Shown piece by piece: positions 3,057-24,293 of a stretch of 64,000 bases of DNA (the first letter of the stretch is position 1; every line of letters starts with the position of its first letter). A model generated the notes under the pieces. That model was not told the origin of the DNA. It did not search any database and saw only the letters and a list, made by a program, of their open reading frames with translations. Source of the DNA: Algisphaera agarilytica (GTDB lineage: Bacteria > Planctomycetota > Phycisphaerae > Phycisphaerales > Phycisphaeraceae); NCBI RefSeq assembly GCF_014207595.1, contig NZ_JACHGY010000001.1:310001-374000 (forward strand), in the 5' to 3' direction. A program made the translations under genes and the position numbers.

Positions 3057-4373
3057 ATGTCGCAGCAACCCCTCTCCGTCGCCATGATCGGCTACGGCAC
3101 CGTCGGCCGCGGCGTGGCCCAACTGCTGCACGAACAGGCCGAGCTCTACACCCAACGCACCGGCCGGGCGATCACCCTCGCCAAAGTCCTGGTCCGCGAC
3201 ACCGCCAAGGCCCTCGCCGCGGGCGGCATCGATGAATCGCTGCTCACCAACGATGCCGACGAATTCTTCGCCACCGACGCCGAGGTCGTCATCGAAGTCG
3301 CCGGCGGGATCGACCCGGTGGGTGGTTTCGTCCGCCGGGCACTCGAGGCCGGCAAGCACGTCATCACCGCCAACAAATCGCTGCTGGCCAAAGACGGCCC
3401 CGCCCTCTTCGCCCTCGCCCGGCAGCACAACGTGTCGATCGCCTTCGAAGCGTCCATCGGCGGCGGCATCCCCTGCGTCACCGCCCTCACCGCTGGGCTC
3501 ATGGCCAACGAGATCTCCGGCCTCTTCGGCATCCTCAACGGCACCTGCAACTACATCCTCACCCAGATGACCCAGCACGGCGAGTCCTATGCCGACGCCC
3601 TCCAAGGCGCTAAAGAAAAAGGTTACGCCGAGGCCGACGAAACCCTCGACGTGTCCGGCGCCGACGCCGCCCAAAAACTCGCCGTACTCGCCTCGCTCGC
3701 CTACGGCGTGAACATCGGCGAAGACGACGTGCCCTGCCACGGCATCGACACCCTCGACCTCGACGATGTCCGCTTCGGCGACGAGCTGGGCTTCGACATC
3801 AAGCTCATCGCCTCGGCCGAGCGTTGGCCCGGCCAGCCCTACATCGCGCTCAACACCGCCCCGTGCTTCATCCCCAAGGCCGAGCAACTTGCCCAGGTGC
3901 ACGGCTCGTTCAACGCGTTGTCCGTCGTCGGCCACGCCGTGGGCCACACCATGTTCTACGGCCGCGGCGCCGGCCAAGGCCCGACCGCCTCGGCCATCGT
4001 CAGCGACCTGCTCAACGTCGCCTGCGGCGCCTACCCGCTCGCCTTCGCCAACCTCCAGCTCACCCCCGACCTGCACGACCCCGCCCCGCTCGTCGAGCCC
4101 GGCGACCTCGAGAGCCGCTGGTACCTCCGCGTCAACGCCCTGGACGTCCCCGGCGTCATGGCCAGGCTCACCGACGCCCTCGGCTCCCGCGGCATCAGCC
4201 TCTCCTCGCTGCTCCAGCACGACGCCCTCGACGGCCAAGACACCGTCCCCGTCGTCATCGCCACCCACGAAGCCCGCCGCGGCGACCTCCAAGCCGCCGC
4301 CGACGTGATCGAGAACCTCCCGGAAGTGCACGGTAAACCTGTGATCTACCGGATTCTCGATCTGCCGAGCTGA
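3057..4373 (+). CDS. hom: Homoserine dehydrogenase
   Basis: Catalyses NAD(P)H-dependent reduction of aspartate semialdehyde to homoserine, the branch point to threonine and methionine. The 438-residue product has an N-terminal Rossmann motif (IGYGTVGRGVAQLL, residues 10-24), NKSLLAKDG with the conserved lysine, the GILNGTCNYILTQM signature near residue 160, and a C-terminal ACT domain from about residue 355 (YLRVNALDVPGVMARL). The ACT domain normally mediates threonine feedback inhibition. A TAGGAG ribosome-binding site lies 9 bases before the ATG. The gene stands alone, divergent from the Fur-family gene. Confidence 0.95.
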   Translation: MSQQPLSVAMIGYGTVGRGVAQLLHEQAELYTQRTGRAITLAKVLVRDTAKALAAGGIDESLLTNDADEFFATDAEVVIEVAGGIDPVGGFVRRALEAGKHVITANKSLLAKDGPALFALARQHNVSIAFEASIGGGIPCVTALTAGLMANEISGLFGILNGTCNYILTQMTQHGESYADALQGAKEKGYAEADETLDVSGADAAQKLAVLASLAYGVNIGEDDVPCHGIDTLDLDDVRFGDELGFDIKLIASAERWPGQPYIALNTAPCFIPKAEQLAQVHGSFNALSVVGHAVGHTMFYGRGAGQGPTASAIVSDLLNVACGAYPLAFANLQLTPDLHDPAPLVEPGDLESRWYLRVNALDVPGVMARLTDALGSRGISLSSLLQHDALDGQDTVPVVIATHEARRGDLQAAADVIENLPEVHGKPVIYRILDLPS

Positions 4374-4724: not shown

Positions 4725-4878
4725 TATTTAGAATCCCCTGATTGTCAATCGCTATGAAAACCCCACCTACCACACTGGCTGCCTTATCGGGGTGCAGGGG
4801 CAGAGCCCCCGCCGCTCGCCGCGCAGGCGATCCGTAACGAATCGGCCACAAACCCATCCACGTAAAACAACATCGACG

Positions 4879-9772: not shown

Positions 9773-9780
9773 ATTTTTAT
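9773..9780. repeat. Left target-site duplication
   Basis: ATTTTTAT directly precedes the left terminal repeat and is repeated exactly at 12882-12889 after the right end. Eight bases is the duplication length known for the IS1595 family. Confidence 0.92.
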
Positions 9781-9803
9781 GGCAAGTATGTACTTAGCTA
9801 AAA
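9781..9803 (+). repeat. Left terminal inverted repeat
   Basis: GGCAAGTATGTACTT followed by AGCTAAAA; pairs with 12859-12881, where the middle triplet is GAG instead of AGC. Confidence 0.92.
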
Positions 9804-9928: not shown

Positions 9929-10093
9929 TCAATCGGCGTCATCATCCCCGCCGCTTTGTTCAACATCTTCAGGCCAACCCTCTTCGGGCTTCGGCTTGTT
10001 CAGAGCCTTCTGAACCGCAGATTCCCAGTCCTCATCTATCTTCAGTCGGTCGGCTTCTGGGCCGGGCGAAGATTCTTTCTTTTCGTCAGACAT
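9929..10093 (-). CDS. Small acidic hypothetical protein, transposon cargo
   Basis: A 54-residue acidic protein starting MSDEKKESSPGPEADRL, with a central amphipathic stretch KIDEDWESAVQKALNKPKP and an acidic C-terminus. An ATG at 10111 would add six residues. The IDEDW element recalls the start of DUF1844 proteins, but the rest does not match, so I give no family. It is divergent from the 10201 gene with a 107-base A/T-rich spacer that must hold both promoters. Confidence 0.5.
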   Translation of the reverse strand: MSDEKKESSPGPEADRLKIDEDWESAVQKALNKPKPEEGWPEDVEQSGGDDDAD

Positions 10094-10200
10094 CTGTAAG
10101 TCCCTTTGCATTCAATAGTTAACAAAAGCGCTGAAAATTACCGCAATAAACAGCTTTATTAAACGCTTGGCGCTGCGGGTATGGCGCCTATAATCTTCTT

Positions 10201-10647
10201 ATGACCAGCACCGACTACTCCACTTTGACGGAACTCAAGAACCGTTATTCCGCACGCGAATCGCTGATTTCAGCCGTTCTCAACCATATTACCAGCGATC
10301 CCGAGTTTGGCGAAGAGCTTGCACAAGCATTGCTGGAAGCGGGATGTAAGACAGGCGCGGTGTCCGCACAAGGTAGCCGAAGGGGAACGCAAGCCGAGCA
10401 GATCATGGCTTACTTCAGGTCGCGGGGGAACGAGTGGGCTGAAGTATCGCAAATCCGCAAGGCTACCGATATCGGTCGCGGTGCAATCGCCAACGTTCTT
10501 TACAAAACCCACGTTCATCGTTTTGAACACCAACAGCACCCAAGCCACAAGTCGCGGAAAGTTTGGCGGCTCAAGCCCAAAAGCGAGCAGGAAAGGCTGC
10601 TCACACCCATTGGGGGTGATGAGCTAGATTTCAAGGACCAGGATTAA
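10201..10647 (+). CDS. Putative winged-helix DNA-binding protein, transposon cargo
   Basis: A 148-residue protein. The N-terminal half is helical (STLTELKNRYSARESLISAVLNHI). The segment from about residue 66, QIMAYFRSRGNEWAEVSQIRKATDIG followed by RGAIANVLYKT, has the shape of a winged helix with the second helix as recognition helix, and a basic wing follows (HQQHPSHKSRKVWRLKP). No catalytic motif is seen. A role in regulating the element is a guess from location. Composition is less GC-rich than the host genes. Confidence 0.55.
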   Translation: MTSTDYSTLTELKNRYSARESLISAVLNHITSDPEFGEELAQALLEAGCKTGAVSAQGSRRGTQAEQIMAYFRSRGNEWAEVSQIRKATDIGRGAIANVLYKTHVHRFEHQQHPSHKSRKVWRLKPKSEQERLLTPIGGDELDFKDQD

Positions 10648-10775: not shown

Positions 10776-10836
10776 TCTAGGCCGAAGCCGTTTAACCTTT
10801 TTGCCTCGATCCGCTTTGCGGCGGGTCTTGGCGTTT

Positions 10837-10920
10837 GCTCCTGTGGCGAAATTGGTAAACGCCGTGCGTCTGGGACGCACCGTCTGGCTGGACTTGCGGG
10901 TTCGAATCCCGCCAGGAGCA
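10837..10920 (+). tRNA. Class II tRNA, leucine-type body with UGG (proline) anticodon
   Basis: A full cloverleaf can be drawn. The acceptor GCTCCTG (10837-10843) pairs with CAGGAGC (10913-10919), with discriminator A at 10920. The D-stem is GCG/CGC with loop AAATTGGTAAA. The anticodon stem GTGCG/CGCAC closes loop TCTGGGA. A 15-base variable arm contains GTC/GAC, and the T-stem GCGGG/CCCGC closes TTCGAAT. The TGGCGAAATTGGTAAACGC D-region, long variable arm and A73 are leucine-tRNA features. The anticodon TGG reads proline CCA, and position 33 is C rather than the near-universal U. CCA is not encoded. It lies inside the transposon. Confidence 0.85.
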
Positions 10921-11022
10921 TTGATAAAGCGTAGCGCGACTACGGCAATCGTGCAAGCACCAAATCCAAAGCAATGTATCGCGCGCGCGAGTAAGAATTT
11001 GCGGCAATTTATTTCTTTATAC

Positions 11023-11050
11023 TTGACGTAAATATTTACTCAAGTAAAAT
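11023..11050 (+). promoter_or_regulatory. Transposase promoter
   Basis: TTGACG at 11023-11028 and TAAAAT at 11045-11050, spaced by 16 bases. The expected start point, about 7 bases after the -10 box, falls on or near the ATG at 11057, so the transcript may be leaderless. The spacer contains the palindrome GTAAATATTTAC and a CTCAAGTAAAA segment that also occurs in the right terminal repeat. Confidence 0.6.
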
Positions 11051-11056
11051 GATGCA

Positions 11057-12049
11057 ATGAACAACAAGGGAAGCAAAACCAAGGTCGGACAAGACAAAAG
11101 CGAGCTGGTCGCCAAGCTTCCAATGGCTTGCGCTGATGAGCGATCGGCCATTGAGTTCTTCGAGAAACAACGCTGGGGCGATACACCATGCTGCCCCGAG
11201 TGTGGCGACACCGATGTCTACCAAATGAAAGACCGCGATGGCAATCGCCAAAAGAACTGCCGTTGGCGGTGCCGTGGTTGCGGGAAGCAGTACACATGGC
11301 GCACCGGCACCGTTATGGAAGACAGCCGTATCCCCGCCCACAATTGGGCGTATGGCTTTTGGCGGGCCGCTACGTCGAAGAAAGGCGTTAGCGCTCTTGA
11401 GATCAAGCGTCACACCGGCCTGTCGTATAAGAGCGCGTTGTTCCTGATGCACCGCATCCGCTTTGCGATGGCCCCAACCGATGGTGGCCCCAAACTTACC
11501 GGCACCGTTGAAGCTGACGAAACATTTGTCGGCGGTAAACCCCGTAAACGCACGCCTCAAAAACCATTCGGCAAGCCCGGCCAAGAGCCCAGCAATGCGC
11601 AGACAATGAAAGATCGCAAGACACCCGTGTTTGGCGTGGTGTCCCGCGAGACTGGCGAGGTTCGCGCCCGCGTATTGCCCGACGTAAAAGCCCACAACCT
11701 CAAGGCCGCGTGCGATGAATTGATCGACAAATCGGCCAAGCTGATGACCGATGAGGCGATGGCCTACCGCACCATCGGCAAGGCGTATGCGGGCCACGAG
11801 ACGGTTACCCACGGTCGGGGCGAGTACGTTCGGGGCGATGTAACCACTAACACTATCGAGGGCTTCTGGAGCCTTCTAAAGCGTGGCGTTTACGGCACGT
11901 TCCATAACGTCAGTCGGGCGCACCTGCAGCGCTACGTTGATGAGTTAGAGTTTCGGTACAACCACCGAAAGCTAGAAGACGGCCAGCGAACGCTTGCGGC
12001 GATCGCAGGGGGCGAGGGCAAGCGGCTTATGTACTGCGATCCAATTTAA
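11057..12049 (+). CDS. IS1595-family (ISXO2-like) transposase
   Basis: A 330-residue DDE transposase. The N-terminal zinc ribbon has CCPECG near residue 39 and CRGCGKQYTWRTGT near residue 72. The catalytic domain shows VEADETFVGGK (first acidic residues), LMTDEAMAY (second) and NTIEGFWSLLKRGVYG (third region), followed by YVDELEFRYNHR, all typical of the IS1595 family. No frameshift or stop interrupts it. It is flanked on the left by the tRNA and on the right by a convergent cargo gene. The gene uses proline CCA codons, for example at 11120-11122. Confidence 0.94.
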   Translation: MNNKGSKTKVGQDKSELVAKLPMACADERSAIEFFEKQRWGDTPCCPECGDTDVYQMKDRDGNRQKNCRWRCRGCGKQYTWRTGTVMEDSRIPAHNWAYGFWRAATSKKGVSALEIKRHTGLSYKSALFLMHRIRFAMAPTDGGPKLTGTVEADETFVGGKPRKRTPQKPFGKPGQEPSNAQTMKDRKTPVFGVVSRETGEVRARVLPDVKAHNLKAACDELIDKSAKLMTDEAMAYRTIGKAYAGHETVTHGRGEYVRGDVTTNTIEGFWSLLKRGVYGTFHNVSRAHLQRYVDELEFRYNHRKLEDGQRTLAAIAGGEGKRLMYCDPI

Positions 12050-12155: not shown

Positions 12156-12815
12156 TCAATCTATTTTCTGTGTTCTATCGTAGACGCACGATCCGTCCGC
12201 GTCAAGATGCTGGGCGAGATATCCGGCTAGGTAGGTTTTATTTTCCGTACTCTTAAGCCTCTTTCCAGACTTCACTTGTGACTCAAGCTCAGGGTACTTC
12301 TGCCTGGCGAACGGGTCATCTCTCAGTCTGATTGTCGCGTTAAGTAAAAGGTCGCAACACTGGAGGCAGTCGTTGTTTCGGCTGTCAAGGTGGTAGCAGC
12401 GACGTATGCCCGATGTTCTCTGAATCGAATTTTGGATGTCGCTACGACTGTGTTCGTTATCAAAATCTAAGAAAGCGACAACGTCATACGGCTTACTAAG
12501 CTGCTTATTTCTCACGAACTCATCAAGGAATGACAGGATCTCGTATTCCTTAGTTCTTGAATCTTCCCACCGTTCCACAAAAAACTTGGTTCCCCGATGC
12601 TGGAAAGTTCGATAAATCCACTTCTCGGCCAACTCCCGACAATCGCCCCTGATGTTCGACCAGTGAACCTCGTGAGGACGAAAGGCTCCAGCTATATTTC
12701 TGCATAAGTGCAGCTTGTGCAGAAAGGAAGCGGTATTTGGAACCACTAGGAAGCCAAGCGCCCTGTCCCCCTTTACCTTTCTTTCATCGATGTAGATATC
12801 CCACGGAGTAGACAT
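12156..12815 (-). CDS. DUF3800-like protein, transposon cargo
   Basis: A 219-residue protein beginning MSTPWDIYIDERKVKG; a start at 12839 would add eight residues. The early YIDER strand, the middle VVAFLDFDNEHS segment and the late NNDCLQCCDLLLNATIRL segment match the pattern of DUF3800 proteins, which have an RNase H-like fold with acidic residues on these three elements. DUF3800 proteins are often found near mobile or defence genes, but their biochemistry is poorly known. It is convergent with the transposase and has its own terminator. GC content is well below that of host genes. Confidence 0.68.
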   Translation of the reverse strand: MSTPWDIYIDERKVKGDRALGFLVVPNTASFLHKLHLCRNIAGAFRPHEVHWSNIRGDCRELAEKWIYRTFQHRGTKFFVERWEDSRTKEYEILSFLDEFVRNKQLSKPYDVVAFLDFDNEHSRSDIQNSIQRTSGIRRCYHLDSRNNDCLQCCDLLLNATIRLRDDPFARQKYPELESQVKSGKRLKSTENKTYLAGYLAQHLDADGSCVYDRTQKID

Positions 12816-12858
12816 TCGTTCAGAATAGCGGATGGGCACCCGATATACCGCAATCTAA

Positions 12859-12881
12859 TTTTACTCAAGTACATACTTGCC
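12859..12881 (-). repeat. Right terminal inverted repeat
   Basis: Reads GGCAAGTATGTACTT then GAGTAAAA on the minus strand, ending exactly at the right target-site duplication. Confidence 0.92.
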
Positions 12882-12889
12882 ATTTTTAT
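12882..12889. repeat. Right target-site duplication
   Basis: ATTTTTAT, identical to 9773-9780. Confidence 0.92.
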
Positions 12890-24180: not shown

Positions 24181-24293
24181 GGAGAGACGGCCAGGACACC
24201 GACGGCACCGGGCCGACGACACTTAGGGCTGCTCCGGTCAAGGCCTGACCCGATTCGTGAGCCGTCCCGTGCATCGAGCCCAGCCGCCTCTCC
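24181..24293 (-). ncRNA. ffs: Signal recognition particle RNA (4.5S type)
   Basis: On the minus strand GGGTCAGG-CC-TTGACC-GG-AGCAGCCC (24217-24252) matches the conserved helix 8 of bacterial SRP RNA, including both strands of the symmetric loop (CAGG and AGCAG). The ends GGAGAGGCGGCTGGG (24279-24293) and CCTGGCCGTCTCTCC (24181-24195) form a 15-bp helix with three wobbles, defining a 113-nt hairpin. Inner pairing includes GCACGGG with CCCGGTGC. The apical loop is not the usual GGAA. It lies upstream of dnaX on the same strand, a known linkage of this gene. Confidence 0.85.

Follow-up and report, generated by a model that had tools for sequence, protein, structure and literature searches.

A family of IS1595-type transposons carries its own mismatched tRNA, and the anticodon of this tRNA fits one strongly conserved codon near the start of the element's own transposase gene, suggesting that the element deliberately misreads its own gene at that point. 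The link between the RNA and the codon is well supported; the misreading is inferred from codon usage. In the 29 elements with a UGG-anticodon RNA, transposase codon 22 (Pro) was CCA in 28 and CCT in one. In 10 elements without a UGG RNA it was CCA in 3, but always Pro.

A tRNA with a UGG anticodon inside an IS1595-family transposon

The window analysed is a 64,000-nucleotide stretch of Algisphaera agarilytica (assembly GCF_014207595.1, contig NZ_JACHGY010000001.1, positions 310,001 to 374,000). ARAGORN called tRNA-Pro(TGG) at 10836-10921, and Rfam RF00005 matched 10837-10920 with 52.4 bits (E 2.2e-8). The initial annotation had described a complete class II cloverleaf of leucine type with a proline UGG anticodon, lying between the ends of an intact transposon next to a transposase gene with CCA codons. 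This observation was confirmed. The 84-nt RNA has a 7-bp acceptor stem, a 5-bp anticodon stem, loop TCTGGGA (with C at position 33), a 15-nt variable arm (10881-10895), a 5-bp T stem and A73. The transposon is 3,101 bp long, and its features are as follows.

9773..9780: left copy of the 8-bp target-site duplication, ATTTTTAT
9781..9803 (+): left terminal inverted repeat, GGCAAGTATGTACTT...; relatives have similar ends (consensus CGGAAGTATGTACTT)
9929..10111 (-): small conserved protein of 60 aa (PGPxPxRLKI..WExAV..AL.KP.P..GWP)
10201..10647 (+): 148-aa ORF of unknown family, without a Pfam hit; a promoter-like site precedes it at 10167-10194
10837..10920 (+): class II Leu-type tRNA with UGG anticodon
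10871..10873 (+): anticodon TGG (reads CCA)
11023..11050 (+): promoter-like site before the transposase; overlaps TTTACTCAAGTA (11035-11046), identical to 12860-12871 in the inner right end
11057..12049 (+): IS1595-family DDE transposase of 330 aa with zinc ribbon
11120..11122 (+): codon 22 (CCA), the proposed target of the tRNA
12156..12839 (-): DUF3800 protein, cargo (PF12686, 2.7e-7)
12859..12881 (-): right terminal inverted repeat
12882..12889: right copy of the target-site duplication

The transposase has an ISXO2-like DDE domain with a zinc ribbon (PF12762, 2.2e-41, and PF12760, 4.1e-9), and its gene has 5 CCA codons. Inverted ends and an 8-bp duplication, the size typical of the family, were also present. 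The promoter-like sites were no more frequent than in shuffled sequence (3 against a mean of 2.3), and a 12-nt repeat in two copies, as for TTTACTCAAGTA, can arise by chance. A profile of the small protein hit 27 of the 29 UGG elements and all 10 others, four of them weakly (scores 15-24); the window copy had no Pfam match. The second Pro of its PGP motif was CCA in 12 of 26 UGG elements and 1 of 9 others, too weak a difference to use. A search with the whole element found one place in the 4.17-Mb genome, which has two ordinary tRNA-Pro(UGG) genes with C1:G72. This genome also has, beside a dispersed set, an array of 28 tRNA genes in about 8.6 kb (locus L057, G000 C1:2039000-2049500, where G000 is the window's genome; L numbers denote loci throughout). 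The tRNA-Leu genes of the array (CAG, CAA, GAG) are only 74-76 nt, without a long variable arm. A bacterial small SRP RNA lies elsewhere in the window at 24186-24285 (-) (47.4 bits).

Recurrence and identity of the element RNAs

To find relatives, named genomes were scanned with the transposase, giving 25 loci. Further searches covered 400 genomes of the order (26 with a match at 1e-100), 392 of the phylum (12 at 1e-80), 154 of one class with another query (4 at 1e-60), 347 and 249 of two other phyla (4 and 3 at 1e-100) and 216 of another order (3 at 1e-90); these counts include genomes already known. Among plasmids, 406 records were found, all under 60% identity (best-ranked 39.5%), and among phages 4 records (24-34%). 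The window transposase alone found no relative in IMG/VR, although a profile did (see below). UGG-RNA elements occur in seven groups: Phycisphaeraceae/Phycisphaerales, Gammaproteobacteria, Gemmatimonadetes, Eisenbacteria, Binatia, Acidobacteria and Deltaproteobacteria; however, these are metagenome bins, and single assignments can be wrong. The elements share ends (consensus CGGAAGTATGTACTT), whereas other cargo differs from element to element. In 20 of the 29 UGG elements both ends and a target duplication of 7 or 8 matching bases were found, and in all 20 the RNA lies between the ends.

Of 39 elements with Pro22 that could be classified, 24 (window included) carry a class II UGG tRNA, 5 carry a ~70-nt tRNA-like RNA with a UGG loop ("mini"; L036, L040, L116, L117, L120), and in 10 no UGG RNA was found. 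Partial or cut elements were left out of this count (L046, L047, L049, L051, L054, L056, L127; codon 22 is CCA in L046, L047, L049, L054 and L056, CCG in L051, absent in L127). Also left out were an Arg22 outgroup (L048, L129, L131, L132, L133, L135, L159; L131 carries a class II UGG tRNA), longer versions of loci already included (L104-L107, L125, L134), short-flank copies (L068-L103, L137-L143, L147-L157, L166, L167) and distant transposases (L052, L053, L055, L126, L128, L136, L144-L146, L160, L161, L165, L169). The RNAs were classified with knowledge of the codons. Minis were sought after CCA elements without a class II RNA had been seen; the same script was run on all loci then at hand and a similar one on later loci, but the permissive Rfam scan that found the mini of L040 was run on only 6 and then 8 chosen loci.

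In the 24 class II RNAs, 99.2% of 480 stem cells were paired and 19 of 20 pairs showed a change on both sides. The covariation score was 0.749, against 0.180 in shuffles and at most 0.137 in slid controls. Part of this set was picked by a script that requires acceptor and T pairing, but not D or anticodon stem pairing. The initial annotation had named degeneracy, or decayed copies in homologous elements, as evidence against its reading; instead, homologous elements carry intact, covarying copies. A captured host tRNA or pseudogene of no function is therefore very unlikely, even though some relatives lack the RNA and L035 has a UUA anticodon.

The class II RNAs have A73 and A14 in 24 of 24, A15 in 23, U48 in 21, C72 in 20 and U33 in 21. 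In E. coli, Leu identity rests on A73 and A14 with tertiary contacts, and the anticodon arm is dispensable for leucylation; bacterial Pro identity lists G72 and G15:C48 beside G35, G36 and A73, and bacterial Ala identity lists G3:U70 and A73 (PMC9976931). A15:U48 is a further Leu feature. The RNAs have a Leu-type body without a leucine anticodon. Eight aligned minis (the five above plus L035, L127 and L164) have G3:U70 and A73, whereas G3:U70 is found in 0 of 24 class II RNAs. Six of the eight have UGG in the loop (not L035 or L164). Two further mini-like RNAs lie outside this alignment, one in L124 without UGG and without G3:U70, and one in L179 with both. Leucine is expected on the first kind of RNA and alanine on the second. 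Charging with proline, the RNA simply helping to decode CCA, is improbable. The UGG anticodon, A73 and G37 (16 of 24), which are among the bacterial Pro determinants (PMC9976931), and G72 (3 of 24) would fit it. However, the window tRNA has G1:C72 and A15, the set mostly lacks G72 and G15:C48 and has a class II arm, the host already has two tRNA-Pro(UGG), CCA is avoided at conserved Pro sites, and the minis carry the Ala signal.

Other tRNA-like RNAs were found in these elements. L116 (oriented 4736-4828, -) has, between its ends and in addition to its UGG mini, a Ser-type class II tRNA (G73) with Leu anticodon UAG. L161 (3002-3086, +), a divergent IS1595 element (42% identity) without a Pro22 equivalent, has a Ser-like class II tRNA with UGG and G73. 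Arg22-clade elements L129, L132 and L159 carry Leu-type class II tRNAs with UGC anticodons; a GCA codon is suggestive at residue 16 (L132, L159), but no consistent site was found. Four elements have a second tRNA-like RNA with U73 (L037 5070-5144, L038 5382-5453 (-), L041 2345-2417, L043 3657-3731), that of L037 with a Cys-like GCA loop. L036 has an Rfam DUF3800-IX RNA (3818-3882, -; 52 bits) next to an ORF (3190-3819) that looks DUF3800-like by eye.

Codon 22 and the use of CCA in the transposase

To determine which codons the tRNA might serve, we examined 107 conserved columns with degenerate codons in 47 transposases. Pro22 was the strongest outlier (0.94 bits; CCA 31 of 40, against 136 of 561 Pro codons overall), followed by S286 (0.78 bits; AGC 33 of 42). 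CCA was found in 28 of 29 elements with a UGG RNA (CCT in L108) and in 3 of 10 without (CCC 2, CCG 4, CCT 1; Fisher p = 5.7e-5). Two unrelated RNA types fit the same codon, class II (23 of 24 CCA) and G3:U70 minis with a UGG loop (5 of 5). Against the CCA share at variable Pro sites of the same genes (74/281) the binomial p was 1.3e-15. Relatedness makes this value too small; however, neighbouring conserved residues A24, C25, E28 and A31 have mixed codons (A24: GCC 13, GCG 7, GCT 6, GCA 3), so shared ancestry alone does not fix codons here. On the transposase tree the RNA needs 8 changes and CCA22 needs 7. Only four independent contrasts lie on well-supported branches; in most pairings three go together, none goes against and one is a tie, too few for significance. 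L111, L112 and L123 keep CCA22 without a UGG RNA.

In UGG elements CCA was nearly absent where Pro is conserved (80%-conserved columns, codon 22 left out): 3/80, against 74/281 at variable columns (Fisher p = 1.9e-6). In the 24 other transposases the values were 13/63 and 36/182, and UGG elements differed from the others at conserved columns (p = 0.0023). Seven other A-ending codons showed at most a slight gap in UGG elements (largest: GCA 21/219 against 103/656, TCA 10/91 against 36/222). By site, CCA in UGG elements was 2/24 at 44, 0/23 at 47, 1/28 at 93, 0/20 at 145, 0/28 at 162, 1/21 at 190 and 1/20 at 208, but 14/20 at 140, 4/5 at 146, 4/4 at 242, 5/5 at 243 and 13/16 at 329. Other variable sites were low or mixed (16 0/5, 167 0/6, 235 0/8, 225 2/9, 144 5/8), and the window itself uses CCA at the otherwise avoided Pro44. 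At seven critical Pro sites, a list made after the data had been seen (unlike the 80%-conserved columns), CCA was 4/136 with class II RNAs and 1/28 with minis, against 59/150 and 12/36 at other sites except 22; in elements without UGG it was 9/54 and 8/49. At CCA sites other than 22, aligned residues were Pro in 24.5% in UGG elements, against 50-57% for the other Pro codons and 49% for CCA in other elements. Cargo ORFs of 100 aa or more, in elements with found ends, also used less CCA in UGG elements (87/478 against 53/154), although their make-up differs. A residue-likelihood test at CCA sites still ranked Pro first and singled out neither Leu nor Ala. Host RecA uses CCA in its GPESSGKTT and NPETTPGG stretches, at conserved prolines, so misreading in this host must be partial or weak.

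CCA rare at critical and common at tolerant Pro sites is also what a neutral ratchet predicts, in which a misreading tRNA hitch-hiked in and codon use drifted to tolerate ambiguous CCA, making tRNA and transposase mutually dependent without regulatory benefit. This explanation is possible but unlikely, because it does not predict near-fixation of CCA at one invariant Pro with two different RNA types.

The link was then tested on held-out elements, with three expectations written down beforehand. A family search gave no new elements; a profile scan of IMG/VR gave 13 loci, some of them copies of one element. Codon 22 was CCA in 4 of 4 elements with a UGG RNA and a readable codon (L170, L171, L174, L177), as expected. 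Two expectations did not clearly hold. CCA at critical Pro sites of UGG elements was 2 of 18, or 4 of 21 with L179, whose transposase lacks its start, instead of under 10%. CCA22 without UGG was 2 of 4 (CCA in L175 and L178, CCT in L172, whose left end is cut off, CCC in L173), or 4 of 6 with L180 and L182, which are cut by their contigs, instead of about 25%; this slightly lowered our confidence. No tRNA-family match appeared in L172, L175, L178, L180 or L182. L173 (oriented 4152-4252, +) carries a class II tRNA with anticodon AGG, found by our scan and not by ARAGORN, beside a CCC codon 22: a possible swapped anticodon-codon pair, although its ends were not confirmed by a duplication.

Stalling or shifting of ribosomes at CCA22, or a role of the RNA outside translation, is improbable. 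C33 in the window and irregular anticodon loops in the minis would fit it, and a shift into the +2 frame would stop after 3-4 codons in 14 of 28 UGG elements. However, in the other 14 this stop lies 9-369 codons away, the base after CCA varies, only the triplet itself is kept, and U33 is present in 21 of 24 RNAs. C33, stressed in the initial annotation, is rare (2 of 24 RNAs, the window and L110). Anticodon-mRNA pairing extending beyond the triplet was looked for by eye and not found. Stop suppression was considered because the L035 tRNA reads UAA; no in-frame UAA with a matching role was found, its transposase and one cargo ORF end in TAA, and L035 has CCG22, so it is treated as a decayed case. 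The in-frame TAA in the transposase of L032/L069 looks like a simple broken copy.

Proposed missense decoding and comparison with known systems

The explanation we favour, held with somewhat better than even confidence, is that the element encodes a missense tRNA. Its Leu-type body should be charged with leucine (in some relatives a mini should be charged with alanine), and its UGG anticodon would compete with host tRNA-Pro at CCA. The selected target would be codon 22, yielding two isoforms from one gene: Pro22, made by the host tRNA, and Leu22 (or Ala22), made by the element tRNA. An AlphaFold2 model (mean pLDDT 81.8; blocks 11-20 and 21-30 at 66 and 92) puts residue 22 inside predicted helix 16-26, followed by helix 28-40, where the zinc-ribbon match (27-78) begins; sites 140, 146, 242, 243 and 329 are outside helices. 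Pro in mid-helix kinks it, whereas Leu and Ala both favour helix. Elements without a UGG RNA keep Pro at 22 (10 of 10) with any codon, and 9 of 10 have 8/8 target duplications, so Pro22 looks like the working residue. A UGG RNA is almost never seen without CCA22, so its benefit seems to lie at that codon. The most likely use is dosage-dependent self-control in trans, in which the substituted isoform restrains the Pro22 form, so that cells already carrying the element would limit further transposition. The TTTACTCAAGTA repeat before the transposase and in the inner right end would fit a form that binds DNA as repressor, but this is speculation.

The anatomy of the RNA, its location inside the element, its recurrence, the codon-22 link and the avoidance of CCA elsewhere were shown, whereas charging, misreading, the isoform roles and the direction of control are inferences made without charging, expression or protein data. 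The opposite direction, in which Leu22 or Ala22 is the active form and the transposase is licensed by the element's tRNA, is possible but less likely. CCA22 is kept in 28 of 29 UGG elements, and among Pro codons at sites usually K, R or E CCA predominates (146, 242 and 243), as if CCA often means something other than Pro; however, elements without a UGG RNA never have Leu or Ala at 22.

The interpretation in the initial annotation, that the RNA would put leucine (or serine) at CCA or serve as a non-decoding RNA, was partly supported. Leu rather than Ser identity was supported, as was, by inference from codon usage alone, misreading of CCA. That the RNA is a recurrent part of this IS1595 clade and is tied to one transposase codon was not foreseen.

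A broader reading, not excluded but doubtful, is that these transposons run a private, ambiguous code. Each lineage would carry a missense tRNA with a given anticodon and amino acid (UGG with Leu or Ala; AGG with codon 22 CCC; possibly UGC and UUA types), matched to one codon of its own transposase, as a trans-acting copy-number and superinfection control in which different anticodons form different immunity groups.

Here a target can be named: one codon, in the same element, with a comparative signature and natural elements without the RNA as controls. If the favoured reading is true, a mobile element uses programmed sense-codon ambiguity to make two forms of its transposase. Searches of open-access PMC, limited to listings and starts of abstracts, turned up no such way of gene control, no tRNA in an IS1595 element and no tRNA tied to a transposase codon. 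Mismatched tRNAs themselves are known from allo-tRNAs (PMC7609411; original Mukai et al. 2017) and tRNA-ProX (PMC11415595); a link of some allo-tRNAs to transposable elements was suggested there. Allo-tRNAs are natural bacterial tRNAs whose identity and anticodon disagree, as here, and some bear G3:U70. They have a 12-bp acceptor/T domain arranged 8/4 or 9/3 and mostly Ser identity, whereas the class II RNAs described here have 7 acceptor and 5 T-stem pairs in all 24 (partly a selection criterion of our scan) with Leu identity, and the others are minis; no codon target is given for allo-tRNAs in the section describing them. The tRNA-ProX/ProRSx system is likewise a genetically encoded tRNA that mistranslates a sense codon, with unknown benefit. 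Its direction is reversed (Pro put at Ala, Asn or Thr codons), it has its own synthetase, whereas none was found among the five window-element ORFs searched in Pfam, and no mobile-element context or codon target appears in the text consulted. IS1595-family transposons with passenger genes share the transposase, ends, 8-bp duplication and variable cargo, but a tRNA as a recurrent part tied to the transposase gene is not known in the family. In recoded phages, a mobile element carries its own suppressor tRNA to read codons in its own genes; those tRNAs read stop codons, whereas the codon here is a sense codon that the host also reads. IS1, IS911 and IS50 make two transposase forms from one gene by frameshift or inner start, one form restraining the other; here the second form would arise by amino-acid substitution through a dedicated tRNA.
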